Shown: positions 41,006 through 55,423, counted from the first letter of the stretch. The stretch is DNA of 64,000 nucleotides from Hippea sp. KM1 (GCF_000526195.1 NZ_JAFP01000001.1:1442014-1506013); one strand, 5' to 3'. The notes: generated by a model not told the origin, from the sequence alone. Numbers and translations are program-made.

Positions 41006-42610
41006 ATGTTGGGCAATGTCTCCATTAAAACCCTTGTTATCAGCGGGCTTTCGATAGTTCTATTGGGCTTTGTTGTAATGGTTACAATGAATGTAAGCTT
41101 TATCAACAAAAGCAAAAGCCGCCTTGTTAGGGTTTATGCAACCGATTTTAAACAGATAACCGAATACCACAAGATAGAAAGGGGGTTTAACAAAGGGGAG
41201 AGATTGCTCATAAAATCATACATAACGAGGGACAGAAAGCTCATCAATCAGGCAAAATCCCAATTCTCATACGCAATAGAAGCAATTGATAGGCTCCTAA
41301 ACAACCCATCAATTAGCGGCAACGAGAAGCAAAAACTAATCAACTTAAAAAACCTTCTAAATAAACAGCTCACCATCGCACTCAATCAGTTAGAAGAAAC
41401 CATGAAAACGGGCAACTATTCAGAAGAAGAATTGTCAAAGATGGACAGCATGGCATCAACCATAGAGGCAGCGATCGTAAACATAACAGACTCAAACCTA
41501 AACCAGGCCGAAGCATCGCTAAGAAGCGTAATAAAGAGCATAAACAGGAATGCAACAACCACATTCATCGCATACGGCATATTGGCTGTAATACTCATAA
41601 TCATATTCATCGTTACAAAATCGTATCTAATCAACCCATTAAGCGGTGTTGAAAGTGTTATGAACGAGATAGGCAAGGGCAACCTAAACGCCCGATTCAA
41701 TGTCTGGACACACAACGAGATCGGCAACCTAAAAAGGCAGTTGAACAACATGGTGGACAACCTGCAAAAGATGGTCAACAACATAAAAGAGGCTGCCGAT
41801 GCCATGGTAAACCACTCCGCTCACCTATCATCTGCCGCAGTCCAAATGTCTGCTGCCAATGAGGAGGCCACACACGGCATGGACGAGATCGTATCGGCAA
41901 TAAGCGATACATCCAATGCCATAAACAGCATTGCAACATCCACAGAAAACATCACACAGCTGGCAGAGGCTATAGCCGAGGTCAACAAGAAGATGCTTGA
42001 GGATATGGAGAAAAAGGTAAAGAGGATGAACAAAAATGCCGAGCTGGCAGAAAAAACCATGGAGCAGATAAACATCGTCGGCGAATCGTCAAAAGAGATA
42101 GGCAAGATCGTCGATGTAATTAGCGATATAGCAGATCAGACCAACCTGCTTGCCCTAAATGCCGCCATTGAGGCAGCAAGGGCTGGAGAGGCAGGACGGG
42201 GCTTTGCCGTTGTTGCCGATGAGGTGAGGAAGTTAGCAGAGAAAACACAGCGCTCGACAGAGGAGATCAGGGCCACCATCATAAAGATGCAGAAGGATGT
42301 TGAAAAGGCCATAGAGAGAACAGAACAGACAAAGGAGAGCATACTCTCTGAGTCTGAGGCAATAAAGATAAACGAGGAGCATGTAAACGAGGTCGTTGAA
42401 AGAACAAACAGAACCATAGACGAGATACACTCAACCAGCGCAGCAACGGAGGAGATATCCGCAACGGTCTCTGAGGTCGACTCACAGATCAAAGAGATGC
42501 AAAACGCCATAAGGGAGAATGCAAAGGCAGCAGAGGAGGTGGCAAACGCATCGGTTGAACTGAAAAACATCGCACAAACCGTGCTTGATTTAGTAAACAA
42601 GTTCCACTAA
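41006..42610 (+). CDS. Methyl-accepting chemotaxis protein, 4-helix-bundle sensor (sister 1)
   Basis: A 534-residue transmembrane chemoreceptor. TM1 (about 9-30) and TM2 (about 190-212) flank an all-helical periplasmic sensor of about 160 residues, like the four-helix-bundle MCP family. A HAMP domain follows ([20 protein letters not shown]). The signalling hairpin has tip [20 protein letters not shown] near residue 387. There is no C-terminal CheR-binding pentapeptide. It is a paralogue of the next gene: sensors differ, but signalling parts are nearly identical even in DNA. It probably has its own promoter and ends before a hairpin at 42620. Confidence 0.93.
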
Positions 42611-42619
42611 GAACCCAAA

Positions 42620-42649
42620 GGAGGCAGGGGGTAAAAATCTCCTGTCTCC
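42620..42649 (+). terminator. Hairpin after the first sister chemoreceptor
   Basis: A 9-bp stem, GGAGGCAGG (42620-42628) pairing with CCTGTCTCC (42641-42649) with one G-T, lies 10 bases after the stop codon. The following T-rich stretch is interrupted (CCGCTTATTCTTAATCTTTT), so termination may be partial. Confidence 0.6.
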
Positions 42650-42733
42650 CCGCTTATTCTTAATCTTTTAACCAATTCTCTATTTATACACCGAACATTT
42701 TAACTAACCACCTTTTTACAAGTTAACTTGCAC

Positions 42734-42762
42734 TTGACGATATGAGACCAATCGATTATACT
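42734..42762 (+). promoter_or_regulatory. Predicted sigma-70 promoter of the second sister chemoreceptor
   Basis: TTGACG (42734-42739), a 17-base spacer and TATACT (42757-42762), 87 bases before the ATG at 42850. It shows that the two sister receptors are transcribed separately. Confidence 0.75.
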
Positions 42763-42795
42763 TATAATAAGTGAATTAATAACTTATGTAAAATG

Positions 42796-42808
42796 TTTTT
42801 TTTTTTTT
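42796..42808 (+). repeat. Run of 13 T in the leader of the second sister chemoreceptor
   Basis: An uninterrupted T13 lies about 27-40 bases after the expected transcription start and 41 bases before the ATG. A weak AT stem (ATAAGT/ACTTAT) sits just upstream. Such tracts change length by slippage and can also cause RNA polymerase slippage or termination. Confidence 0.85.
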
Positions 42809-42849
42809 GCGATTTTTAGTAAATAAAAAAATTTTTCAGGAGGTGGGCG

Positions 42850-44445
42850 ATGTCGAATGTATCGGTGAAGAAAATGATTGCTGCATTCTTTATCCTCATC
42901 ATAGCGGGCCTGGCAATAGGGTTCTATGCCACCATAACATCAAGCAAAAGCATCAAACAGAAAACCAGGGTCATATACTCCAGGGATTTGGGTCAGGTCA
43001 GCCTGTATAACAAGATAAGGGAGAACTACTCAAAGGCAGAGAAATACCTTCTAAAGGCTTACTTCCTTAAGGATGAAAGAATGCTTAAAGAGGCAGAGAG
43101 GTATTTTGAGAAGGTGGATGCGCTTATCGAGAAAAACATAAACAGCGCCAGGATAGGCTCAACAGAAAAGCAAAGACTATCAACCCTAAAATCGGCAATA
43201 GACAACCAGTTGAGGGTCGCCTTAGGTCAAATAAACCTCAACTCAAGCAAGATAAGCTATGAGGAGTTCCAGAGATTCGATAAACTTACCCAATCCATAG
43301 ATGAGCAGATAAACTCTATTCTGGGCAACAGGATCAGTTTAATCAGATCATCAATCACAGGCATCTATAGGGGCTTAAATAACCATGATAGACTGATGTT
43401 TGTTGTGTATGCCTCCATTGCAGCGATAGTAATACTGGGCTTTATGGCCTTTACAAAATACCTAATAAAACCGTTAAGCGGCGTTGGTGATGTGCTTAAC
43501 AAAATCGGGGATGGCGATCTAACCGCCAGGTTTAATATATACACAAACAACGAGATAGGCAAACTCAAAAGAAACATAAACTCAATGGTTGAAAATCTGC
43601 AAGCCATGGTAAATGAAACAAAAACGGCATCCGATGCCATGTTAAAGGGCTCATCCAACCTATCATCGACAGCCGTTCAAATATCGGCTGCAAACGAGGA
43701 AACATCAAGGGGCATGGAAGAGATAAAAAATGCCATAGAGGATGCAACAAAGGCCATTGAGAGCATAGCAGAATCGACAGAAAACATAACATCCTTAGCC
43801 GAAGGGATAGCAGAGATAAATCAAGAGCTGATAAAAGATATGGAAGAGAAGCTCAGAATGATGGAGATCAATGCAAGGTTGGCCGAAAGAACGATGGAAC
43901 AGATCAATGTTGTCGGCGAATCGTCAAAAGAGATAGGCAAGATCGTCGATGTAATTAGCGATATAGCAGATCAGACCAACCTGCTTGCCCTAAATGCCGC
44001 CATTGAGGCAGCAAGAGCCGGGGATGCTGGACGGGGCTTTGCCGTTGTTGCCGATGAGGTGAGGAAGTTAGCAGAGAAAACGCAACTATCAACAGAGGAG
44101 ATCAGAACAACGATTACGAAGATGCAACAGGATGTGGATAAGGCCATAGAGCAAACCATCAAGACAAAAGAGAGCATACTATCGGAAGCCGAATCCATCG
44201 AAAGAAACAGGGAGCATGTAAACGAGGTCGTTGAAAGGACAAACAGAACCATAGACGAGATACACTCAACCAGCGCAGCAACAGAGGAGATATCTGCAAC
44301 AATGACAGAGATAGACTCCCAGATTGGCGAAATCACAGAGGCAATAAGAGAGAATGCAAAGGCGGCTGAGTCCATAGCATCCCTATCCGTGCAGCTAAAA
44401 GATACAGCTCAGAATGTTTCAGACCTGTTAAATAAGTTTAAATAA
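42850..44445 (+). CDS. Methyl-accepting chemotaxis protein, 4-helix-bundle sensor (sister 2)
   Basis: A 531-residue transmembrane chemoreceptor with the same plan as its upstream sister. TM1 is at about residues 8-29 and a helical periplasmic sensor follows. TM2 is at about 178-200. HAMP ([20 protein letters not shown]) and a signalling hairpin with tip [20 protein letters not shown] complete it. The sensor is diverged, so a different ligand is likely. Long blocks of the signalling half are identical in DNA to the sister. A strong CAGGAGGTGG ribosome site precedes the ATG. The leader carries a T13 tract. Confidence 0.93.
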
Positions 44446-44486
44446 AGGGTTAAACCTATGGGGGCATGCCTTATAAAATTTAGGGA

Positions 44487-44515
44487 TTTACAACAAAACA
44501 AAAAAATAATATAAG
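44487..44515 (+). promoter_or_regulatory. Predicted sigma-70 promoter of the GGDEF-EAL gene
   Basis: TTTACA (44487-44492), a 17-base spacer and TATAAG (44510-44515), 49 bases before the ATG at 44565. Confidence 0.65.
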
Positions 44516-44564
44516 GTAGGTTGAGGATTGTTGGGTTAAGAATATTGAGAATAAAAAGCCTGTT

Positions 44565-47090
44565 ATGAAAAGGATAGAGTTTGACGAGGCAACATTAAAG
44601 GCCATAAGCAACACAACCATATTCGGCGTGTATGTCTATCAAAAAGACGGTCGATTTGTCTTTGTAAACGACGCATTCTGCAGGCTTGTGGGATACCAGA
44701 AGGAGGAGCTTTTAAGCGGCCAGGTAAAGCTTTTGGATCTAATCAAGGATGAATATAAAGAAAGGGCCAAAAGCATCATCGAGCGCAGGGTTGCAGGCGA
44801 GTTCTTCTCAAGGGAGTTTAGCGAAATTACATACCTAACAAAGGACAGACAGACAAAGCTTGTTTTAAACTTCGGCTATACAGTCATATACGACTCCAAA
44901 CCCTCAGGCTTTGTAATCACCGTGGATATAACAAAACAGAAAACCTATGAGATACTATACAAGGCACTGGCCAAGGTAAACGAGTTATCCACTAACATAA
45001 CCCAGGAGGATGAGATACTCAAACAAACGGTCAGGGTGCTGAATGAGGATGTTGGGTTTGACCTTGTATGTTTAGGGTACGTGGATGAGAAAACCGAACT
45101 GTTTAAGGAGAAATACATAGCAGGCAAACAGACATACATAGACATCTTCAGAAACATAAAGATATCGGTGAACCCCGACATACCCGAAGGAAGGGGAAGC
45201 ATAGGCCGCTCATACAGGGAAAAGAGGATCGTCACCATAAACAACATATACTCAGACAAAGGCATGTCTGCCTGGAGGAGTGTACAGAAGAGGTTTGGTG
45301 TCTATTCGGTCTGCTCCATACCGCTTTTCAAAAACGGTGATATCGCCTATATCCTTATTTTGTATTCTAAGATACCTAATATATTCTCAGGCGAATTCAT
45401 GCACCTGATAAACAGCTTAAGCAAAACCCTTAACTCCACACTGGAAAAGCTCGAAACACAGAAGTGGAAAACCATCCTGGAGGAGGCCGTCAATTTAGGG
45501 TTTGAGTTTATCCTCATAGCAGAAGAAGACCTAAAAATAGTCTATGCTAACGACAATGCAACACAGACCCTGGGCTACACAAAGCATCAATTGCTAAACA
45601 AGAGACTGAACGAGATAGTATACCAGGAGAACGACAGGGATATAGGCGAGGTTATAGAAAAGCAGGATTATAGCGGCAATTGCCTGGTGTTTAAGCTAAA
45701 AACGGATGAGGGCAACATCAAGAAGGCCCTCTTCCACCTATCCAAGGTAAAAACAGACAGAACATACATCATAGCCGCAGGCAAGGACATAACAGAAAAC
45801 ACCGAGTTGCAAAGGCTCATAGAAAACGCCTTAAGGAGGGATAGCATCACAAACCTCCTAAACAGATATGCCTTTACCGAAGCCATAGAAAGATACATAG
45901 AAAGGGCCCAATATCAGGATAGATTGGGCGCCGTGGTTGTGCTAAAGCCGATAAACTTCTCCCTGATAAACGAGGTTGTGGGTTTCCAAAAGGGCAACCT
46001 GATACTCAAAGAGATCGGCGAAAGGATCAAAAAACACCTAAGAAGATACGACATAATAGCCAAACTGGAGTCCTCCAAGTTTGCCATACTCCTGAAAGAT
46101 ATGAAAAGAGAGGAAGACATACTCGTTATCAGCATGGATCTGATAAGACAACTATCAAAGCCATACGACATAGACGGCCAGAGGTTTAACCTCTCGTTTA
46201 ATGTGGGCATTAGCATATACCCGATAGACTCAAAAGACCCGATAGGCTTACTGGATAAGGCCGAGATTGCGCTCATCGATGCCAGACTCAAAGGCGAAAA
46301 CTCCATAGGGTTCTATAAAGAGGAGCTAAAGAGCGAAACCGAAAGGAAACTGAAGATCAACCAGGAATTCCCAGAGGCGTTAAAGAACAAGGAGTTTGTC
46401 TTATACTTCCAGCCGTATTTTAGCATAGCGACGGGTGCAATAGAGGGGGCCGAGGTCCTTATAAGGTGGATAAAAAACGGAACCGTCATATCGCCGCTTG
46501 AATTCATACCGATCTTCGAACAGACCAGAAACATAGTTAAACTGGAGAACTATATAATCGACGAGGTGGTGGAGCTATTAAGCACTAATTCAATAGACAA
46601 ACCGCTCTCTGTCAATATATCGGCCACAAGCCTTATGGATGAGGCCTTCACAGAAAAACTCATAGGCTTACAGCCCCAATACAAAAAGCTCATAAACATC
46701 GAAATCACGGAGAGGTTGTTTTTAGACAAACCCGGCAGGGCAAGCAGCATACTGCACAAGCTGCGCAATGAGGGTTATAGGGTATACATAGACGATTTCG
46801 GAACGGGTTATTCATCGCTTTCCTATATCTCAAACCTCCCTATAGACTGCATCAAGATAGACATCTCATTCGTCAGGCAAATGATGGAAAACCCCAAGAC
46901 CAAAGCCATTGTGAAAACCATCGTCTATTTAGCCCAGCAACTCAACCTAACCACCATAGCAGAGGGCGTTGAAAGCAAAGAGCAATTAGAAACCTTAAAA
47001 GAGATGGGATGCCAGATTGCCCAGGGCTTTTTATTCTCAAAACCCCTACCCAAAGAGGAGTTCTTAAACCTTTTAGAAAAATACCAATAA
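44565..47090 (+). CDS. PAS-GAF-PAS-GGDEF-EAL c-di-GMP signalling protein, likely phosphodiesterase
   Basis: An 841-residue soluble protein. Domains in order: PAS (about 10-125), GAF (140-295), PAS (305-420), GGDEF (425-585) and EAL (605-841). The GGDEF active site reads LESSKF instead of GGDEF, so cyclase activity is very probably lost, though the domain may still sense GTP. The EAL domain is intact: EVLIRW in place of EAL (a known working variant), NIEITERLF, IDDFGTGYSSLSYISNLP and EGVESKEQ are present. So it should hydrolyse c-di-GMP in response to cytoplasmic signals. The start codon lacks a clear ribosome site, so translation may be weak. Confidence 0.92.
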   Translation: MKRIEFDEATLKAISNTTIFGVYVYQKDGRFVFVNDAFCRLVGYQKEELLSGQVKLLDLIKDEYKERAKSIIERRVAGEFFSREFSEITYLTKDRQTKLVLNFGYTVIYDSKPSGFVITVDITKQKTYEILYKALAKVNELSTNITQEDEILKQTVRVLNEDVGFDLVCLGYVDEKTELFKEKYIAGKQTYIDIFRNIKISVNPDIPEGRGSIGRSYREKRIVTINNIYSDKGMSAWRSVQKRFGVYSVCSIPLFKNGDIAYILILYSKIPNIFSGEFMHLINSLSKTLNSTLEKLETQKWKTILEEAVNLGFEFILIAEEDLKIVYANDNATQTLGYTKHQLLNKRLNEIVYQENDRDIGEVIEKQDYSGNCLVFKLKTDEGNIKKALFHLSKVKTDRTYIIAAGKDITENTELQRLIENALRRDSITNLLNRYAFTEAIERYIERAQYQDRLGAVVVLKPINFSLINEVVGFQKGNLILKEIGERIKKHLRRYDIIAKLESSKFAILLKDMKREEDILVISMDLIRQLSKPYDIDGQRFNLSFNVGISIYPIDSKDPIGLLDKAEIALIDARLKGENSIGFYKEELKSETERKLKINQEFPEALKNKEFVLYFQPYFSIATGAIEGAEVLIRWIKNGTVISPLEFIPIFEQTRNIVKLENYIIDEVVELLSTNSIDKPLSVNISATSLMDEAFTEKLIGLQPQYKKLINIEITERLFLDKPGRASSILHKLRNEGYRVYIDDFGTGYSSLSYISNLPIDCIKIDISFVRQMMENPKTKAIVKTIVYLAQQLNLTTIAEGVESKEQLETLKEMGCQIAQGFLFSKPLPKEEFLNLLEKYQ

Positions 47091-47243: not shown

Positions 47244-48194
47244 ATGTTGTGGGTTTATAGTGTCATGCAACTGTTCTTTGTGGCCGCCTTTGCACCCTTA
47301 ATTGTGGGTATTTTCAACAAACTCCTTGAGATTTACCAATCCAAGGAAGGCCCTCCGATCTTACAGCCCTATTACGACCTTGCAAAACTGTTCAGAAAAC
47401 AGAGCGTCATACCTCAGGTTGCATCGGATCTGTTTCAGGTTGTTCCATACATCACATTCTCCATGTATTTATTCTTAACCCTGGTTCTGCCTATCATTAC
47501 CGGTTTTCCCTTGATATTTGGCCCGACGGTTGATTTTATCGGCGGCGGGTTGATATTTGCAGCCATAGCAACGCTAAAGAAGCTTGCAGCCTTAGACAGC
47601 AGAAACAACTACTCCCACATGGGTGTTTCAAGGGCATCAAGTATCGGCGCACTCTCAGAACCCATAATCGTCCTCATATTCATAACATTCGGTGCCATAT
47701 CCCACACAAACAACCCCTATGTGGTCAACAACATACTGCAGACATCGACCCATTGGTATGCCTCACTCGTTCACTGGTTTGTTGTATTTGCCTTCTTCAT
47801 GGCACTATTGATTGAAACGGGCAAATTGCCCATAGAATCCCACACAAACAACGAATTCGGCATGATAGACCAGGCCATAGAGATGGAGTATTCATCCAAG
47901 GAGTTGGCGTTTATGAGGTGGGGCAGCTATATAAAGCAGTTTCTCCTTATGAGTGTATTCTTAAACGACTTCCTGTTTCCCTTTTTTCTGCCTATGAAGC
48001 CCGATTTTTGGTCTGTTTGCGTCTATAGCGTAATCCATCTAATAAAACTTACCATCCTGGTGTTTATTATTGCAACCATCCAATCCACCATATCCAAATA
48101 CAAGCTATTCAAAAACTTTGAATATGTGGCCATAGCCTTTTCCTTTGCCCTGCTTGCCATACTGGTCTTTTACACAACCGGAGGTGTCTTATGA
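47244..48194 (+). CDS. Group-4-hydrogenase-like membrane subunit (HyfC/HycD/NuoH family)
   Basis: A 316-residue integral membrane protein with about eight membrane segments. In hydrogenase-4 and complex I this subunit joins the hydrophilic core to the ion-pumping arm. The family block EGPPILQPYYDLAKLFRK is near residue 30, but the preceding Arg of the usual RRGP reads SKEGP. The acidic loop IETGKLPIESHTNNEFGMID with the following AIEMEYSSKELAF is present near residue 190. The ATG at 47244 has a GAGGTGG ribosome site; a TTG four codons earlier is rejected. It is the first gene of a six-gene operon with 4-base overlaps. Confidence 0.88.
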   Translation: MLWVYSVMQLFFVAAFAPLIVGIFNKLLEIYQSKEGPPILQPYYDLAKLFRKQSVIPQVASDLFQVVPYITFSMYLFLTLVLPIITGFPLIFGPTVDFIGGGLIFAAIATLKKLAALDSRNNYSHMGVSRASSIGALSEPIIVLIFITFGAISHTNNPYVVNNILQTSTHWYASLVHWFVVFAFFMALLIETGKLPIESHTNNEFGMIDQAIEMEYSSKELAFMRWGSYIKQFLLMSVFLNDFLFPFFLPMKPDFWSVCVYSVIHLIKLTILVFIIATIQSTISKYKLFKNFEYVAIAFSFALLAILVFYTTGGVL

Positions 48195-48826
48195 AGGATG
48201 CCTATATAGTCGTGGGATTTCTGCAGATTATACTCATACTCTTTATGCAGTGGCAGGTGTATCTAAAAAAGATGGTTTTAACATTTGCCGTCTCATCGGT
48301 TGCCATAGCGGTGTTGCTGTTTGTGAATTTTCAAATAACACAAGAATTGTCCCTGCTAATTTTGGCTCTGCTTACACTATTTGTCAGAGCCATATTCATA
48401 CCCTCGTATATCTTGAAAAAACTAAAACCACCCCACAGGGAAAGGGAGGTAAAACAGACAATCCCAACAAGCCTCTCCATCATTATCTCCGTTTTGCTGG
48501 TTGTGTTTTCCTATACAATTTACAGAACAGCCCTGTTTAGTAATATTGACATACAGGCAGGCTTCATACCAATAGCCATTATAATCCAGGGCATGTTTTT
48601 GATAGCATCACGCAACAATGCATTCGTTCAGCTTATAGGCTATATGGTAATAGAGAACGGCTTGTTCTTGTTCGGTGGATACATGTTTCCCGATCTGCCG
48701 TTTGTTATAGAAGGCGGAATACTCTTAGACCTCATAGGCGTTGTTATGGTCTCTGCAATCATAATGAGGCTAAGGGAGGAATCCGTATCCGATGTAATAG
48801 ACGAATTCGAAGAGTTCAGGGGGTAG
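48191..48826 (+). CDS. Group-4-hydrogenase-like membrane subunit (HyfE family)
   Basis: A 211-residue membrane protein with about seven helices, related to HyfE, which corresponds to NuoK plus part of NuoJ of complex I. The family block QLIGYMVIENGLFLFGGYMF, with its conserved Glu in the membrane, is near residue 150. The C-terminal LLDLIGVVMVSAIIMRL is typical. In complex I the equivalent acids are part of the central proton path. It overlaps the previous gene by 4 bases and the next begins 3 bases after its stop. Alone it has no redox cofactor. Confidence 0.85.
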   Translation: MKDAYIVVGFLQIILILFMQWQVYLKKMVLTFAVSSVAIAVLLFVNFQITQELSLLILALLTLFVRAIFIPSYILKKLKPPHREREVKQTIPTSLSIIISVLLVVFSYTIYRTALFSNIDIQAGFIPIAIIIQGMFLIASRNNAFVQLIGYMVIENGLFLFGGYMFPDLPFVIEGGILLDLIGVVMVSAIIMRLREESVSDVIDEFEEFRG

Positions 48827-48829
48827 GAG

Positions 48830-50206
48830 ATGTTTTACTATTTACCGATAGGGTTTAGCCTAATAGCCTCCATATTTTGCATAACAAGAAGAGACGGTCT
48901 GGCCGCTTTAGTATCAACCATTTCAGCAGGTCTAAGCGTTGTTAGCTCATTCTATATACTGAACCTTCAAACGACAACATCCCACCTTTTATTGATAGAC
49001 GGAAAATCAAAAATAATGCTTATAATTGTGTCTATAATCTATCTAACAAGCGTACTGTTTTCTTTAACCTACCTTAAACATGTCCATAAACCGCTGCTTA
49101 AGAGAAGCCACTATTATCTATTCCTAAACCTGTTTGCTGCAAGTATGCTCTTCAGTGTCATACTCAACAATTTAGGCCTTATCTGGGTTGGCATAGAGGC
49201 AACAACGATAACAAGCGCCCTCCTTGTTGCTATAGACAACGACGAAGCAGCTATTGAGTCGTCATGGAGATACATAATAATCGTATCGGCAGGCCTCATC
49301 ATCTCACTTGTGGGCATTGTATTCATCTATGCATCAACCCACACGCTTATATTGAGCCAAATAAAACAATTAACCTTCACAAACAAGAAACTGCTTGTGT
49401 TGGGCGGGGCGTTGACTATAGTTGGCTTTGCAACAAAAGCCGGAATCTTTCCCATGCATAGCTGGCTTGCCGATGTGCATGGAAGGGCAATAGCACCCGT
49501 AAGTGCGATATTTTCTGCAGTCCTTCTGCCTGTGGCTTTGTTTGGCCTGTTTAGGGTGCTTGAGGTTATGCCATCTGCCAAACTCCATATATTTGCCTTT
49601 ATGCTTGGCTTTTTGAGTGTCGCTTTTGCATCGATATTTCTCATAAACCAGAAGTTTTACAAAAGGATGTTTGCATATTCCTCTATAGAAAACATGGGTA
49701 TGATACTCATAGGTTTATCCCTAAATACAAAATACTCACTATTGGGGGCTTTTGTACTGCTTGTTGCCCATGCCTTTGCCAAATCATCGGCGTTCTATAC
49801 AACGGGCAACATATTGGCGGTGTTTAATTCAAGAAAAATCAGCGATATAGAAGGCCTAACAAAAATATTGCCAACCGCAGGATACAATCTTGTGTTGTCC
49901 ACGCTGGCTGTAAGCTCAGCACCCCCTTTTGGCACATTCTTAGGCGAGATATTGATAATCTATGCCCTATACTCAACAAAGGGGTTGGCACTGACACTAC
50001 TGTTGGCTGTTTTTCTTTTACTTGATTTCTTGGCTCTAAACGGCAAAACGGCCCAGATGGCATTCTCCAAAACCCAATCAACAAGGATAAAAAGTGAATC
50101 ATCCATGAGTCTAATCATACCTGTCCTAAACACGGTTCTGGCGTTTTTGGTTATATTCGCTGCAGGTTTTATTGAAAAACTCATAACCACGGGGATGATA
50201 AAATGA
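48830..50206 (+). CDS. Group-4-hydrogenase-like antiporter subunit (HyfF/NuoN-like)
   Basis: A 458-residue membrane protein with about 13-14 helices of the Mrp/NuoLMN antiporter-like family. The key charged residues are kept. The helix-5 Glu is in LIWVGIEATTITSALLVAID near residue 120. The helix-7 Lys is in FATKAGIFPMHSWLADVHGR near 205. His and Lys are in VAHAFAKSSAFYTTGNI near 320. These form the proton path in complex I. It lies between the HyfE-like and large-subunit genes. Confidence 0.88.
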   Translation: MFYYLPIGFSLIASIFCITRRDGLAALVSTISAGLSVVSSFYILNLQTTTSHLLLIDGKSKIMLIIVSIIYLTSVLFSLTYLKHVHKPLLKRSHYYLFLNLFAASMLFSVILNNLGLIWVGIEATTITSALLVAIDNDEAAIESSWRYIIIVSAGLIISLVGIVFIYASTHTLILSQIKQLTFTNKKLLVLGGALTIVGFATKAGIFPMHSWLADVHGRAIAPVSAIFSAVLLPVALFGLFRVLEVMPSAKLHIFAFMLGFLSVAFASIFLINQKFYKRMFAYSSIENMGMILIGLSLNTKYSLLGAFVLLVAHAFAKSSAFYTTGNILAVFNSRKISDIEGLTKILPTAGYNLVLSTLAVSSAPPFGTFLGEILIIYALYSTKGLALTLLLAVFLLLDFLALNGKTAQMAFSKTQSTRIKSESSMSLIIPVLNTVLAFLVIFAAGFIEKLITTGMIK

Positions 50207-51408
50207 GATTGTTGGGGATACTAAGGGACGATAGACTGCTTATTCAGGATAAGGATAGGTTGTTTGTAAAAAAGGCCAGCGAATGCAGCTCAACATTTGA
50301 AAACCATGACCTAATAAAGAACAGGGATATATCCATAGGGGGTGGCAAAACCCAGGGCAAGGGCGTTTTTAATTTCAGATACGGGCCAGTGTCTGCTGGT
50401 GTGGCAGAGGCCGGAGTTTTCAATCTTTACACATATGGAGAGAGGATCCTGTCTGTTGAAATTGACCCAGGCTATAAAAAACGCAACATAGAAGCCTTAA
50501 TGGTGAGAAAGACACCCTCCGAGGCATTAAGGCTGGCAGAATCGATATGCGGAAACTTCTCATTCTCCCATTCATTGGCCTTCACAGAAGCTATAGAAAA
50601 CCAAGCTGAAATAGATAAAACAACCCAGAGGGTAAGGATAATAGGCCTTGAATTGGAGAGGGCTTACAACCACATACACCAGATAACAAGGCTTGCAAAG
50701 GGGGCATCCCAAACTGTTCTTACATCCCATCTTGAATGGATCTTTGAGGAACTTCTAAGAATAAACAAGCTCCTTTTTGGCAATAGATTATTGAAGCACT
50801 CAAACCTCATTGGCGGTGTGAAGATCAACCTTGCCAACTTGAAAAAGGCAAAAAATAGAATAATGCTCTTAAGGGAAAAATTCGAAGAGCTATACGAGCA
50901 TGCCCTGCAGAGCTATAACTTTATAGATAGGCTTTACGGCGTGGGAAGGTTGAATAAAGAAAATGCCATAAAAATCGGTCTTAGTGGACCTTCCCTTAGG
51001 GCATGCGGAATAGAAGAGGACCTAAGACGGTTCAACCCCTTGTATGAAAACTTAGAGATAACCACACGCTCGGGGTGCGATGCTTTGGCAAGGATGGAGG
51101 TAAGGGCTGATGAATTTATAAATTCGTGCAATATAATCCTATCGCAGATAGAAAAGATAGACAACGAACCCAAAAAAGAAGAGATTCAAATAAAAGACGG
51201 TGATTACTTAGGCTATTCCTGCTCCCCAACAGGCATTATAGCCTACTATTTAGAGATAAGAGACGGCCTCATAAGCTATGCTTACATCTCAACGCCATCT
51301 GTTTTTGGCTTTATGGCATTTGCAGAGGCCATAAAAGGATACATATTCACTGATTTTAGTTTCACCTTTGATTCATTCGGCATAAACTTTTCAGACTGTG
51401 CAAGATAA
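50203..51408 (+). CDS. Degenerate [NiFe]-hydrogenase large-subunit-like protein (HyfG/NuoD family)
   Basis: A 401-residue soluble protein with the fused layout of HyfG/HycE: an N-terminal NuoC-like remnant, then a NuoD/hydrogenase-large-like body. The first Ni-binding motif, normally CGxC...H, reads CGNFSFSH at residues 116-123: the second Cys is Phe. The C-terminal motif, normally DPCxxC, reads INFSDC at 394-399: the first Cys is Phe by eye alignment. Two of four Ni ligands are therefore gone and the [NiFe] centre cannot form in the usual way. This places it with Ehr-type (energy-converting hydrogenase related) proteins. The chain stops two residues after the last Cys. Confidence 0.82.
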   Translation: MRLLGILRDDRLLIQDKDRLFVKKASECSSTFENHDLIKNRDISIGGGKTQGKGVFNFRYGPVSAGVAEAGVFNLYTYGERILSVEIDPGYKKRNIEALMVRKTPSEALRLAESICGNFSFSHSLAFTEAIENQAEIDKTTQRVRIIGLELERAYNHIHQITRLAKGASQTVLTSHLEWIFEELLRINKLLFGNRLLKHSNLIGGVKINLANLKKAKNRIMLLREKFEELYEHALQSYNFIDRLYGVGRLNKENAIKIGLSGPSLRACGIEEDLRRFNPLYENLEITTRSGCDALARMEVRADEFINSCNIILSQIEKIDNEPKKEEIQIKDGDYLGYSCSPTGIIAYYLEIRDGLISYAYISTPSVFGFMAFAEAIKGYIFTDFSFTFDSFGINFSDCAR

Positions 51409-51418
51409 GGGAGGAGAT

Positions 51419-51877
51419 ATGAAGCCGTGGGCGATTTATGGCATAACACAAAGGATAACGGAGGGCTTTAATAAAACCAAAGAGGCGGTAAGGTCAATAT
51501 CCCCGATTTTTAAAAAATCACTCCACATCTTTCCCATAGATGTATCAAACGACAACAGCCTAAATTTTGAAATAGCCGCCCTACAAACACCGCAATACAA
51601 CATCCACAGATTCGGCATATTCTTTTGCGATTCACCCAGACATGCGGATCTCCTTCTTGTTTTGGGCAAATGCTCACCAAAAATGGTTGAACCCTTAAAA
51701 GAAACGGTCAATCAATTGCCACAGCCGTTTGGCATTATGGTGATAGAAGACAACAGCGGGATAGGCATACCTGTAAAGGAGTTAAATTTAGGCAATATCA
51801 TAGGTTATTATGAAAAACCATTAACCGCAGATGAAATATTAAATGCCCTGTTAAATATAATGGAGGCTGAAAAATGA
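51419..51877 (+). CDS. Degenerate NuoB/HyfI-like small subunit lacking Fe-S ligands
   Basis: A 152-residue protein recognisable as the hydrogenase small subunit/NuoB family from NFEIAALQTPQYNIHRFGI, DSPRHADLLLVLG and NQLPQPFGIMVIED. In the family these regions carry the [4Fe-4S] ligands CxGC, GxC and PGCPP. Here they read SNDNSLNF, IEDNSGIG and YYEKPL, so all four ligand cysteines are absent. The two remaining Cys (70 and 85) are at other positions. The redox cluster nearest the active site is therefore missing. Start ATG at 51419 has AGGGAGGAG upstream; a methionine seven codons earlier lacks one. It overlaps the next gene by 4 bases. Confidence 0.8.
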   Translation: MKPWAIYGITQRITEGFNKTKEAVRSISPIFKKSLHIFPIDVSNDNSLNFEIAALQTPQYNIHRFGIFFCDSPRHADLLLVLGKCSPKMVEPLKETVNQLPQPFGIMVIEDNSGIGIPVKELNLGNIIGYYEKPLTADEILNALLNIMEAEK

Positions 51878-53754
51878 TTGAGGTAATAATAGGCATATTC
51901 ATAACCGGTGCTCTTTTGGGGTTTGCCAAAAAACAGCTAAGCTATGCAACGGCTGCTATAGCTTCCTTTTTGAGCTTTATACTGGGCTTTGAAGCGGTGT
52001 TCTTAAATTTAGCCATAACACATGTGGTGCACTTTATAGACGGCATAAAGATAGGTTTTTATCTGGATAAGACATCGGGTCTGTTTTTGATGATGGCATC
52101 CATCTCGTGGTTTGCAATATCCTTGTTTTCAATAGACTTTGGAAATCGATACAAACAGAGGATGTCTATATTTATCAATCTGGCAATGCTGGGAATGTTT
52201 TTATTGCTCGTATCATACGATATGTTGATGCTGTTTGCAGGCTTAGAGATTATGACCATATCATCCTATATGCTTATTGCAGAGCATGAAGGCTCATATA
52301 AAGAAGCTTATGAGTTTCTATTATTCGGTGAAATATCGACACTTTCTCTGATAATAGCCACAGCGGCCCTATACGCATCGACAAAAACCATAGCCCTAAA
52401 TGCACAATCAAAAAGCCTACCGTTTCTAATCTTTGCATCCCTGGGATTTATGGTGAAGATGGACATGGTGCCGTTTCACACCTGGCTAAAGAGGGTGTAT
52501 TCAAAAGCACCCGCAAATGCCTCAGCCACACTCAGCGGTTCAATGACCCTTATGGGGGTGTACGGCCTTGTAAGGGTTATGCAAATAATCGGATACACAC
52601 ACGGCTGGGGGATTGCAGCCATAGTTTTGGGCAGCATATCGGCTTTCTGGGGCGCCATAGGGGCAGCATCATCGAGGGAGTTGAATGTATTGCCGGCTTA
52701 TTCAACAATCGAGAACAACGGTATGATCTTGGCCCTTCTTGGACTATCCGCTATAGCTTACTCATTCTCTTTAAAGTCAACCCTGCATGAGTTTGCCTTC
52801 TTGGGAGCTATAGTAATTGCCCTATCCCACAGTATAGCAAAAACACTGATGTTTCTATCTATAGGTGAGGCGAAGGAAAGACTGCAGGAGGAAACCATAG
52901 ACGGGGTAAGGGGAATCTATAAAAGCGTGGGCAAGATACCGGCTTTAGGTATCTTAACATCGGGGCTTTCCTTTGGAGGATTTCCGTTGTTTCTGGGTTA
53001 TGTTGCAGAATGGATGCTGCTTGAGGCGGTGTTTCAGTCCTATCAATTCACAAGCATTCTCGATAGAATAGCAAGCTCGACGGCGGGTGTGCTGATGGCG
53101 CTTGCCATGGGATTTGCTTCATTCTCCATGATAAAACTCATAGGGTATTCAGCTCTCGGGTATCACCACAACAAGAAAGCCATAAACATGCCTGTATTTG
53201 CCATGCACATATCCCAACTAATACTAATCATCTTGCTTATCGGGCTTGGAGTCCTTGCGCCCGTGTGGTTTATCCATATAGGTTATCCACAGTTTGTCGG
53301 TGGGCTATTGGGTGTTCCAGAAGGGTGGTTAATTTTAAGTGCGAAACCCATCTTTGGCGTTGTGTCGCCGGCATTTCTGCTTATTGTAATCCTGGTCTTA
53401 TTTATCGTGCCCTTTGCCATCTATACAAAAAACAAAAAGACCACAAAAAGGGTTGTATCTTGGAACGGCGGATTGCATCTAAAAGAGGAGGAATACTTCA
53501 CAGCCAACGCATTTTCGTTCATACTTGAATACATACTGCGCTTTATCTATAACATGAAAGAGATAAAACAAAACAACGAAGCCTTTGTTGTGGTGGCAGA
53601 TGTATTCGACTCTGTATATCAACGGCTTTCAAGACTCACCAAAAAGACAACATATACAATAAGCCATATAATTATGAACGGTAAGGTTTCTTTCTATGTA
53701 TCGTATATACTCATCATGTTTATAATAACCATTGTTGTGTTTAGCGCAATTTAG
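51874..53754 (+). CDS. Group-4-hydrogenase-like antiporter subunit (HyfB/NuoL-like)
   Basis: A 626-residue membrane protein with about 14 helices plus a C-terminal extension containing an amphipathic stretch and a last membrane helix (YVSYILIMFIITIVVFSAI), as in HyfB/HycC. Charged residues for ion transport are kept: Glu in LMLFAGLEIMTISSYMLIAE, Lys in GFMVKMDMVPFHTWLKRVYS, and His/Lys in ALSHSIAKTLMFLSIGEA. It is the last gene of the operon. No ferredoxin-like HyfH/HycF subunit and no formate dehydrogenase gene follows. The next element is the riboswitch region. Confidence 0.88.
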   Translation: MIEVIIGIFITGALLGFAKKQLSYATAAIASFLSFILGFEAVFLNLAITHVVHFIDGIKIGFYLDKTSGLFLMMASISWFAISLFSIDFGNRYKQRMSIFINLAMLGMFLLLVSYDMLMLFAGLEIMTISSYMLIAEHEGSYKEAYEFLLFGEISTLSLIIATAALYASTKTIALNAQSKSLPFLIFASLGFMVKMDMVPFHTWLKRVYSKAPANASATLSGSMTLMGVYGLVRVMQIIGYTHGWGIAAIVLGSISAFWGAIGAASSRELNVLPAYSTIENNGMILALLGLSAIAYSFSLKSTLHEFAFLGAIVIALSHSIAKTLMFLSIGEAKERLQEETIDGVRGIYKSVGKIPALGILTSGLSFGGFPLFLGYVAEWMLLEAVFQSYQFTSILDRIASSTAGVLMALAMGFASFSMIKLIGYSALGYHHNKKAINMPVFAMHISQLILIILLIGLGVLAPVWFIHIGYPQFVGGLLGVPEGWLILSAKPIFGVVSPAFLLIVILVLFIVPFAIYTKNKKTTKRVVSWNGGLHLKEEEYFTANAFSFILEYILRFIYNMKEIKQNNEAFVVVADVFDSVYQRLSRLTKKTTYTISHIIMNGKVSFYVSYILIMFIITIVVFSAI

Positions 53755-53798: not shown

Positions 53799-53892
53799 CC
53801 GAGCCTAACCTCCTAAGGCCTTTAGCTATGGAGGCTGGCCGATAGGGTGTAAGTGGAAACGCTTACGCCTCCCGTGTTTGGAAAGGAAGGTG
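53799..53892 (+). promoter_or_regulatory. MOCO/TUCO-type riboswitch aptamer (molybdenum or tungsten cofactor)
   Basis: The segment has the architecture I recall for the Moco RNA motif. CCTCC (53809-53813) can pair with GGAGG (53830-53834). GGCTGGCCGATAGGG leads into a 9-bp stem 47-55/60-68 (53847-53855 with 53860-53868) capped by a GAAA tetraloop. Then CGCCTCCCGTG and GGAAAGGAAGG follow. It lies 60 bases upstream of ModA-like genes, which fits Mo/W homeostasis. GGAGG at 53830 could alternatively pair with GCCTCC at 53867, and aptamer CCTCC could bind the ribosome site GGAGG at 53941, suggesting translational control. Confidence 0.8.
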
Positions 53893-53951
53893 TTTATGCA
53901 CAACCATTCTCTATTTTAAGCCATTTACATATTTTTTATAGGAGGTTTGAC

Positions 53952-54692
53952 ATGCGTTATTTTGTATGGGTATCGGTGTTTATTCTATCTTTTTCTTTTA
54001 CCTCTTTCGCACAAACGCTTTATTGGTTCACCGGAGCAGGTATAAAAAAACCGGCTCAAGTAATAGCAAAAGCATTCAACAAAACCCACAAAAACAAAGT
54101 GGTAATCATCGCCGGAGGCTCAGGTCAGGTTCTAAACCAGATAATACAATCAAAAAGGGGCGATATATATACGCTTGTTGATGTGGATTTTCTAAAGAAA
54201 GCACAACGGTTTAGGGCCATATCGGGATACAAAAAGATACTCAAATTAACACCAATATTTCTTTTATCCAAAGACGGAGAGAAAAAGATAAAAAGCTTCT
54301 ACGATCTTGCAAAAGACGACATAAGAATAGCAGGGGGAAATCCCAGGGCCATGTGCTTGGGTAAAACATTTAAACAGATAATCTCAAAGCTCCCCTCTAA
54401 AATGGCCAGCAAGATTCAAAAAAACATAGCAGTCAGATGCCTAAATGTATTTCAAATAGTGGGATATGTTAAAGAGGGCGTTGTGGATGCAGGTATTGTT
54501 TTGGATAAAGCCTTAATAAAAAACACTCATCTAAAATATATAACCATACCGCAAAGATACAATGTAAATCGATACGGCTATGTGGCTTTGGTTTCATACT
54601 CAAAAAACAAAAAAGCTCAAGAGGAGTTGTATAATTTTATATTAAAACATCTCTATGTTTATAAAAAATTTGGGTTCGAGGTGATAAAATGA
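53952..54692 (+). CDS. Periplasmic ModA-like (molybdate/tungstate-type) binding protein, copy 1
   Basis: A 246-residue exported substrate-binding protein. The signal peptide is MRYFVWVSVFILSFSFTSFA, cut before QTLYW. The mature start YWFTGAGIKKPAQVIAKAFN followed by GGSGQVLNQIIQSKRGDIYT is the ModA/WtpA family opening, where the Gly/Ser residues bind the oxyanion. The GGNPRAMCLGKTF and VGYVKEGVVDAGIVL segments also fit the family. ATG 53952 has an AGGAGGT site. An in-frame upstream extension would run into the riboswitch and is rejected. No permease (ModB) or ATPase (ModC) gene is nearby. The specific anion is inferred from family and riboswitch only. Confidence 0.83.
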   Translation: MRYFVWVSVFILSFSFTSFAQTLYWFTGAGIKKPAQVIAKAFNKTHKNKVVIIAGGSGQVLNQIIQSKRGDIYTLVDVDFLKKAQRFRAISGYKKILKLTPIFLLSKDGEKKIKSFYDLAKDDIRIAGGNPRAMCLGKTFKQIISKLPSKMASKIQKNIAVRCLNVFQIVGYVKEGVVDAGIVLDKALIKNTHLKYITIPQRYNVNRYGYVALVSYSKNKKAQEELYNFILKHLYVYKKFGFEVIK

Positions 54693-55423
54693 GAAAAGCA
54701 TTTATTGTTTTTATACTTACTTTATTTGCGAGAACTGCTTTCTCTTATCAGTTATACTGGTTCTCGTCAGCAGCTATTAAAAAACCATCACAAAAAATAG
54801 CCAAACTATTCAACAAAACCCATAAAGACAAAGTTATATTAATAAACGGCGGGACAGGACAGGTATTGCAGCAGATGATTCTATCAAAGAAGGGTGATAT
54901 ATACACATGCATCGACCCAAAGTTCTTTAAAATAGCCCAAAAAAAGGGTCTGGTTCTGGGGTTCGAAAGATTTATCAGACTAACTCCTGTTATGGGGTTA
55001 TCGCAAAAGGGCAAGCAGAAGATAAAGAACTTTAAGGACCTATTTAAAGACAATATAAAAATAGCGGCAGGCAACCCAAAAACTATGGCTTTGGGTAAAA
55101 CCTATTTTCACATATTAAATAAACTCCCTATTGAGATGGCATCAAAGCTTAAAAGTAATGTGAAAGTTGAGGCCATAAACATCTCTCAAATTATAAATTA
55201 CCTCAAGCAGAATACGGTTGATGCTGGGCTTGTATTCAAATCCACAGCTAAAATAAACGGATTTGATTATGTAGAAATACCTAAAGAATTCAACCAAATA
55301 AAGAAAGGTTATATAGCCAAAATATCCTTTACCAAAAACAAAAAAGCGCAAAATGAGTTGTATAATTTTATACTAAACCATCTCAACATATACACCCAAT
55401 TTGGCTTTGATGTTATACATTAA
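54689..55423 (+). CDS. Periplasmic ModA-like binding protein, copy 2
   Basis: A 244-residue paralogue of the preceding protein, with signal peptide MRKAFIVFILTLFARTAFS and mature start QLYWFSSAAIKKPSQKIAKL. It keeps GGTGQVLQQMILSKKGDIYT and GNPKTMALGKTYFHILNKLP. Differences at the opening (SSAAI for TGAGI) suggest a shifted ligand preference, perhaps W versus Mo. It starts inside the stop of copy 1 (4-base overlap), so both are under the riboswitch. Its TAA overlaps the TAA of convergent cobU within the palindrome TTAA. Confidence 0.82.
   Translation: MRKAFIVFILTLFARTAFSYQLYWFSSAAIKKPSQKIAKLFNKTHKDKVILINGGTGQVLQQMILSKKGDIYTCIDPKFFKIAQKKGLVLGFERFIRLTPVMGLSQKGKQKIKNFKDLFKDNIKIAAGNPKTMALGKTYFHILNKLPIEMASKLKSNVKVEAINISQIINYLKQNTVDAGLVFKSTAKINGFDYVEIPKEFNQIKKGYIAKISFTKNKKAQNELYNFILNHLNIYTQFGFDVIH

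Follow-up and report, generated by a model that had tools for sequence, protein, structure and literature searches.

A six-gene operon of Hippea derived from energy-converting hydrogenase-related complexes has lost proximal cluster ligands besides its nickel ligands

What does a hydrogenase-like membrane complex do once the residues that hold its redox centres have been replaced? The question is raised by a locus of Hippea sp. KM1, a heat-loving sulfur bacterium, within a stretch of 64,000 nucleotides referred to here as the window. Energy-converting hydrogenase-related (Ehr) complexes were first named in Geobacter. Ehr complexes devoid of Ni ligands are already known, and their function is unknown (PMC6349859, PMC10284858, PMC3569383). 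A sequence-only reading of the window had pointed to a hydrogenase-like complex at 50203-51877. Two soluble subunits are indeed encoded there, by ORFs at the positions it proposed (large, 50203-51408; small, within 51398-51877) that overlap in an operon-like manner, but the whole feature is an operon of six tightly packed genes (47244-53754), of which these are the fourth and fifth:

47244..48194, + strand: HyfC/NuoH-like membrane subunit (PF00146 NADHdh, E 2e-28; TTG 47232 opens the ORF, and ATG 47244 is preceded by GAGGTGG)
48191..48826, + strand: HyfE-like membrane subunit with a NuoK-like part (NF008556, hydrogenase 4 membrane subunit, E 1e-10, under the curated cut-off)
48830..50206, + strand: HyfF-like antiporter-type subunit (PF00361, E 3e-47)
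50203..51408, + strand: large HycE/NuoD-like soluble subunit, without [NiFe] or quinone-site ligands (PF00346, E 2e-27)
51419..51877, + strand: small HycG/NuoB-like soluble subunit, without [4Fe-4S] ligands (NCBIfam NuoB model, E 9e-11)
51874..53754, + strand: HyfB/NuoL-like antiporter-type subunit (PF00361, E 3e-28; NF005046, hydrogenase 4 subunit B, E 1e-100, under the curated cut-off)

The small-subunit ORF is open from GTG 51398, and the GGAGG found before ATG 51419 marks the latter as the likely true start. A scan for promoters and terminators yielded fewer matches than shuffled sequences did. By profile the large subunit is a Complex1_49kDa protein (E 2e-27), while the small subunit matched the Pfam NuoB family at E 0.024 only; among solved structures its best match by sequence was MbhJ of the Pyrococcus hydrogenase (6cfw_J, E 7e-11). 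Fold predictions, made for single subunits, gave AF2 monomers with pLDDT 90 for the large subunit (best PDB match HycE, 7z0s_E, TM 0.83) and pLDDT 80 for the small one (best fold match MbhJ, 6cfw_J, TM 0.67-0.74). Thus HycE is the nearest fold to the large subunit, and hydrogenase-4 and formate hydrogenlyase (E. coli Hyf and Hyc) are the nearest annotated families for the membrane subunits, but the operon differs from both in lacking [NiFe] ligands, Fe-S ligands and ferredoxin subunits of the HyfA/HyfH type.

We refer to the window-type six-gene family as clade W, represented here by 27 loci, namely the window and 26 loci from a scan of GTDB representative contigs. The clade spans at least four phyla: it occurs in Campylobacterota, where it was found in Desulfurellales (uncultured Hippea and the complete genome of Desulfurella acetivorans A63 included) and others, and also, on GTDB representative contigs, in Spirochaetota, Thermotogota (Mesoaciditoga and others) and Bacteroidota. 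When whole genomes were searched with the small subunit, the family turned up in numerous members of the genus and the family to which the host belongs, as well as in its order and class. In a profile search of 386 genomes W members scored 192-262 bits and the next relatives at most 79 bits; in the same search some draft genomes of the genus yielded no W operon. Among the 27 W loci, all those on long-enough contigs had the gene order HyfC-HyfE-HyfF-large-small-HyfB, with two HyfF-type frames in the operon of L057.

In the large subunit, the ligand positions of the former Ni-Fe site were located by alignment with E. coli HycE, Ehr proteins and NuoD:

50548..50571, + strand: CGNFSFSH, first Ni-ligand motif (residues 116-123), with C116 and H123 kept and the second Cys replaced by F119 (50557-50559)
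51385..51396, + strand: former C-terminal Ni-ligand pair, N395 (51385-51387) and D398 (51394-51396), aligned with HycE DPCYSC and Ehr SFNLxYSx

The four Ni-ligand columns of the window therefore read C116, F119, N395 and D398, and C116 is all that remains of the four Cys of a [NiFe] site. The sequence-only reading had recognised CGNFSFSH (here residues 116-123) correctly but had set INFSDC against DPCxxC in the wrong register: C399 lies one residue past the column, and instead of two of four Ni ligands being Phe, three of the four are gone, in the pattern C-F-N-D. F119, S122 and H123 are present in 27/27 members and C116 in 26/27 (Ser in L049); D398 is invariant among the 27, column 395 is N, H or F, and position 399 is Cys in 11/27. 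At least three of the four Ni ligands have been lost in the large subunit of every member. In addition, the large subunit has 37 near-invariant positions at which it departs from most other Ehr proteins, many of them in old active-site motifs and including C116, N118, S122, Q170, H176, S341, Y348, T364, T383 and D398.

Complex I has the same architecture of NuoH-, NuoK-, NuoL-, NuoN-, NuoD- and NuoB-type subunits, and NuoD, like the W large subunit, is acidic at the fourth ligand column (D398 in W). However, the His and Tyr of the complex I quinone site align with S64 and G117 of the window. Nor does the small subunit carry the N2 ligands of NuoB, whereas the NuoB of the host's own complex I keeps its cluster Cys. 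A group 4-like complex with a large subunit devoid of Ni-Fe ligand motifs is, on the other hand, the definition of Ehr used here (PMC6349859, PMC3569383), and it fits the window, whose C-F-N-D subunit is encoded with the other five genes in one operon. Like other Ehr complexes, clade W combines the same six subunit types with loss of the Ni ligands, but the common Ehr gene order is B-C-E-F-L-S and that of clade W is C-E-F-L-S-B.

Two phylogenies, one from the large subunit and one from the membrane subunits with the large and small subunits left out, both placed clade W as one clade nested inside Ehr with support of 100; they were quick trees, with a long branch leading to W and with L125 and L115 as long rows. 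Closest to W are L062, L113 and L115, which have the C-E-F-L-S-B order and small subunits in which a Cys-rich, ferredoxin-like domain at the N-terminus accompanies all four cluster Cys; W small subunits have a similar N-terminal segment (MKPWAIYG) devoid of the ferredoxin domain. The identity of the locus as an Ehr-derived six-gene operon is firm. Loss of the Ni ligands is ordinary for Ehr, and the unusual part lies in the Fe-S ligands of the small subunit:

51551..51562, + strand: former CxxC of the proximal cluster, with the first Cys replaced by D52 (51551-51553) and the second by L55 (51560-51562)
51752..51754, + strand: former third cluster Cys, replaced by N119 (column Cys in 6/27 members)
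51818..51820, + strand: former fourth cluster Cys (PGCPP), replaced by P141 (column Cys in 5/27 members)

With D52, L55, N119 and P141 at these columns, the window lacks the proximal [4Fe-4S] ligands that are usual in the Ehr sampled, and not one of the proximal-cluster Cys of a group 4 [NiFe] hydrogenase is left, as had been claimed from the sequence alone. That claim would have failed had the ligands lain at shifted positions, an explanation discarded on finding no conserved Cys column across the 27 small subunits. No classical redox site can form in this complex, in agreement with the earlier view. That view had also called the complex more extreme than a simple Ehr, and this too holds: most Ehr complexes sampled combine CCCC at the cluster columns with absence of the Ni ligands, whereas clade W has Leu at the second column in all members and has mostly lost the rest. 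The proximal cluster ligands are not given as defining for Ehr in the papers covered. Only in part is the substitution fixed in the clade. L55 is invariant (27/27), while the first column is D, S, N or C. Three cluster Cys, all but the second, are kept in L044 of Spirochaetota and in L049 of Mesoaciditoga, two in L042, L051 and L058, one in L043 and none in the remaining members, so that complete loss of the cluster ligands is not clade-wide. On the membrane-subunit tree cluster breakage amounts to three changes in the set, with six for the third Cys and five for the fourth.

These substitutions recur in 27/27 W loci and in L127, the complete genome of D. acetivorans included, which excludes a sequencing or assembly artefact; conservation in isolates and in metagenome-assembled genomes, together with dN/dS, likewise rules out a pseudogene or sequencing error. 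In one genome (G007) the small-subunit match has a stop upstream of the conserved ATG start, and the profile search reported none there. The loss of the proximal cluster ligands besides the Ni ligands is real and conserved. No report of such a loss in Ehr-type complexes was found in the open literature covered, which did not extend to Marreiros 2013, so an earlier description is possible. A parallel to the intermediate W members is offered by MBS, the Pyrococcus sulfane sulfur reductase, complex I-like as is MBH, in which part of the Ni Cys is lost and a cluster is held by three Cys (PMC7684303). By analogy with MBS, L044 and L049 might still bind a cluster. MBS, however, keeps three [4Fe-4S] clusters and reduces polysulfide, whereas the window complex lacks ligands for any of them.

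Cluster ligands have also been lost in two other Ehr lineages. In L140-L144 (G044 phylum, nine genomes searched) the first Cys is replaced by Asp (or Thr) and the third and fourth by Asp, with the second kept. In L160-L172 (13 loci, G150 phylum) the motifs are of the GSDGSEEQE- or GSDASCEQE- type and the fourth Cys is replaced. Across these lineages the second Cys is kept in all or some members while the first, third and fourth are lost; clade W lost the second Cys first, and its loss is therefore independent of both. The different gene orders and tree places of the two lineages argue that their losses were also independent of each other. That cluster ligands were lost in two further lineages indicates that a complex of this kind can persist without that cluster. 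Asp at cluster Cys 1, 3 and 4 (GSDNACEQE, VGDDA, IPGDPP), with Cys 2 kept, was seen in L140-L144 and also in L059, L119 and L123, and this D-C-D-D set could serve mononuclear metal binding instead of a cluster. The Ehr-like L160-L172 show GTSACSG and IPGxPP and a partial ferredoxin domain only (CFQCGEC). Genome G183 carries two Ehr-type operons (L115 and L116), one of C-E-F-L-S-B order with a ferredoxin-domain small subunit and the other followed by NuoF/NuoG-like genes.

In the membrane arm, by contrast with the lost electron-wire parts, ion-path residues have been maintained. Close pairs gave dN/dS of ~0.02-0.18 in all six genes, that is, purifying selection. TM5 Glu and TM7 Lys, the TM11-12 residues and the E-channel residues are conserved: E123, K203, H217, H314, K318 and E373 of the HyfF-like subunit are invariant in clade W, as are E125, K195, H319 and K323 of the HyfB-like subunit (E379 in 26/28), E202, E208 and E219 of the E-channel in the HyfC-like subunit (E143 in 23/24), and E155, E174 and D180 of the HyfE-like subunit. 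The TM8 Lys position is occupied by Pro234 in the HyfF-like and by Leu226 in the HyfB-like subunit (Val in one member), which takes one station out of the usual proton path; in other Ehr complexes this Lys is already rare in HyfF and common in HyfB. Judging from these residues, the usual proton path may be broken in both antiporter-type subunits. Mrp transporters likewise have antiporter-type subunits with a Lys/Glu pair and no redox centre (PMC9568556), and both subunits of the window bear the TM5 Glu and TM7 Lys expected of them (E123/K203 and E125/K195, invariant). Mrp nevertheless lacks NuoH-, NuoD- and NuoB-like subunits, and the W operon keeps genes for all three.

The host genome (1.74 Mb, one contig) encodes one true [NiFe] hydrogenase and a separate complex I with intact NuoB cluster ligands (L078); neither NuoE nor NuoF was seen in the complex I gene cluster. 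PF00361 proteins are confined to complex I and the W operon, which means that the host has no separate Mrp. When the neighbours of the 27 W loci were clustered, no gene recurred beyond close relatives, which disposes of electron-input genes hidden beside the operon. Directly downstream in the window lie two adjacent paralogous genes for ModA-like (molybdate-type) binding proteins (53853-55423), and upstream (41006-47090) lies an adjacent pair of paralogous genes of chemoreceptor type, after which comes a gene for a PAS/GGDEF/EAL-type protein; similar chemoreceptor genes are also found near the W operon in L033, L034 and L038. Published Desulfurella proteomics yielded no usable expression record for the W operon. 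For D. amilsii, PMC5317093 lists a formate-hydrogen lyase, although the one Ni-Fe type hydrogenase that it recognises in the family is HybABC; the W operon may be the source of that annotation.

Taken at the level of residues, these data suggest that the W complex probably moves ions without passing electrons. As to how, the sequence-only reading had offered three mechanisms without ranking them, and of these we favour a transporter and do not favour a cofactor bound by the remaining Cys/His. Going beyond operon identity, homology, the ligand losses and their stepwise order, selection and the conserved ion-path residues, we infer secondary transport by the membrane arm and a soluble cap that holds or gates the connector. 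The two antiporter-type subunits and the NuoH/NuoK-like connector would form an ion-translocating arm, exchanging cations for H+ at the expense of an existing gradient as Mrp does, and the former hydrogenase subunits would sit on the connector as a catalytically dead cap, gating it or keeping it in place where electrons once acted. What speaks for such a redox-uncoupled, Ehr-derived and Mrp-like transporter is that ion-path residues are conserved, that selection is purifying and that no partner gene recurs, and we regard it as a tentative but leading explanation. It is the simplest account of why an arm was kept while its cofactors were discarded, and Mrp provides a functional precedent (PMC9568556). 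Its main weakness is that the soluble arm should be dispensable to a pure antiporter, whereas selection has kept this arm, with its 37 near-invariant positions. The non-protonatable residues at TM8 of both antiporter-type subunits and the three cluster Cys of L044 and L049 also count against it.

That strong conservation around an empty pocket keeps alive a different drive, in which the [NiFe] pocket, remodelled around N118, F119, S122, Q170, H176 and D398, would bind or turn over another ligand and move ions via the connector by non-redox chemistry. A non-redox drive of this kind has been proposed for the energy-coupled DabA/DabB carbon-uptake system. The near-invariant positions, many of them polar, surround the old [NiFe] site and extend beyond it, and the soluble arm is under purifying selection, but no recurrent neighbour gene hints at a substrate and C116 and column 395 vary among members; we consider this pump unlikely, though worth keeping in mind. 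The same variation, with Ser at C116 in one member and N, H or F at column 395, weighs against a new metal site built from the remaining Cys/His, and such a site was set aside. A redox enzyme drawing electrons from a soluble partner encoded elsewhere, through an unrecognised cofactor or the C116 thiol, seems less likely still: C116 is kept in 26/27 members and electron transfer flavoprotein genes lie downstream at two closely related loci, but these adjoin just 2/27 loci, L049 has Ser in place of C116, neither the ferredoxin domain nor the set of cluster ligands is left, and a small subunit in which no Cys column is conserved lacks the usual electron route.

It is also improbable that the complex has a regulatory or structural role only, sensing ions or pH or docking on the host complex I with no net transport. 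The non-protonatable residue at the TM8 Lys position in both antiporter-type subunits would suit such a role, as would a separate host complex I with no NuoE/NuoF seen in its gene cluster, but a scaffold would not need the invariance that the remaining ion-path residues show from phylum to phylum. The least credible reading by far is that of a former Ehr in decay. The parallel loss of cluster ligands would fit it, as would the failure to find the operon in some draft genomes of the genus, but dN/dS is low in all six genes, frames are intact in isolates, and the operon is fixed across phyla with invariant ion-path residues; the selection data already contradict a relic.

The W complex bears on long-standing questions, namely how complex I couples electrons to ions and whether its modules arose from plain antiporters or may return to them. 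Clade W amounts to a natural experiment in which the parts of the electron wire have been lost stepwise, with intermediates still alive, while the connector and the ion-path residues stayed under purifying selection. Its genes also carry a warning for annotation, since they match hydrogenase-4 models yet cannot encode hydrogenases. If the pocket reading were true, this would be a complex I-shaped machine whose electron-driven engine had been swapped for a non-redox one. If the complex transports ions, its membrane arm would work without redox chemistry and provide a small cofactor-free model, a result that would bear on the role of Ehr complexes as well.
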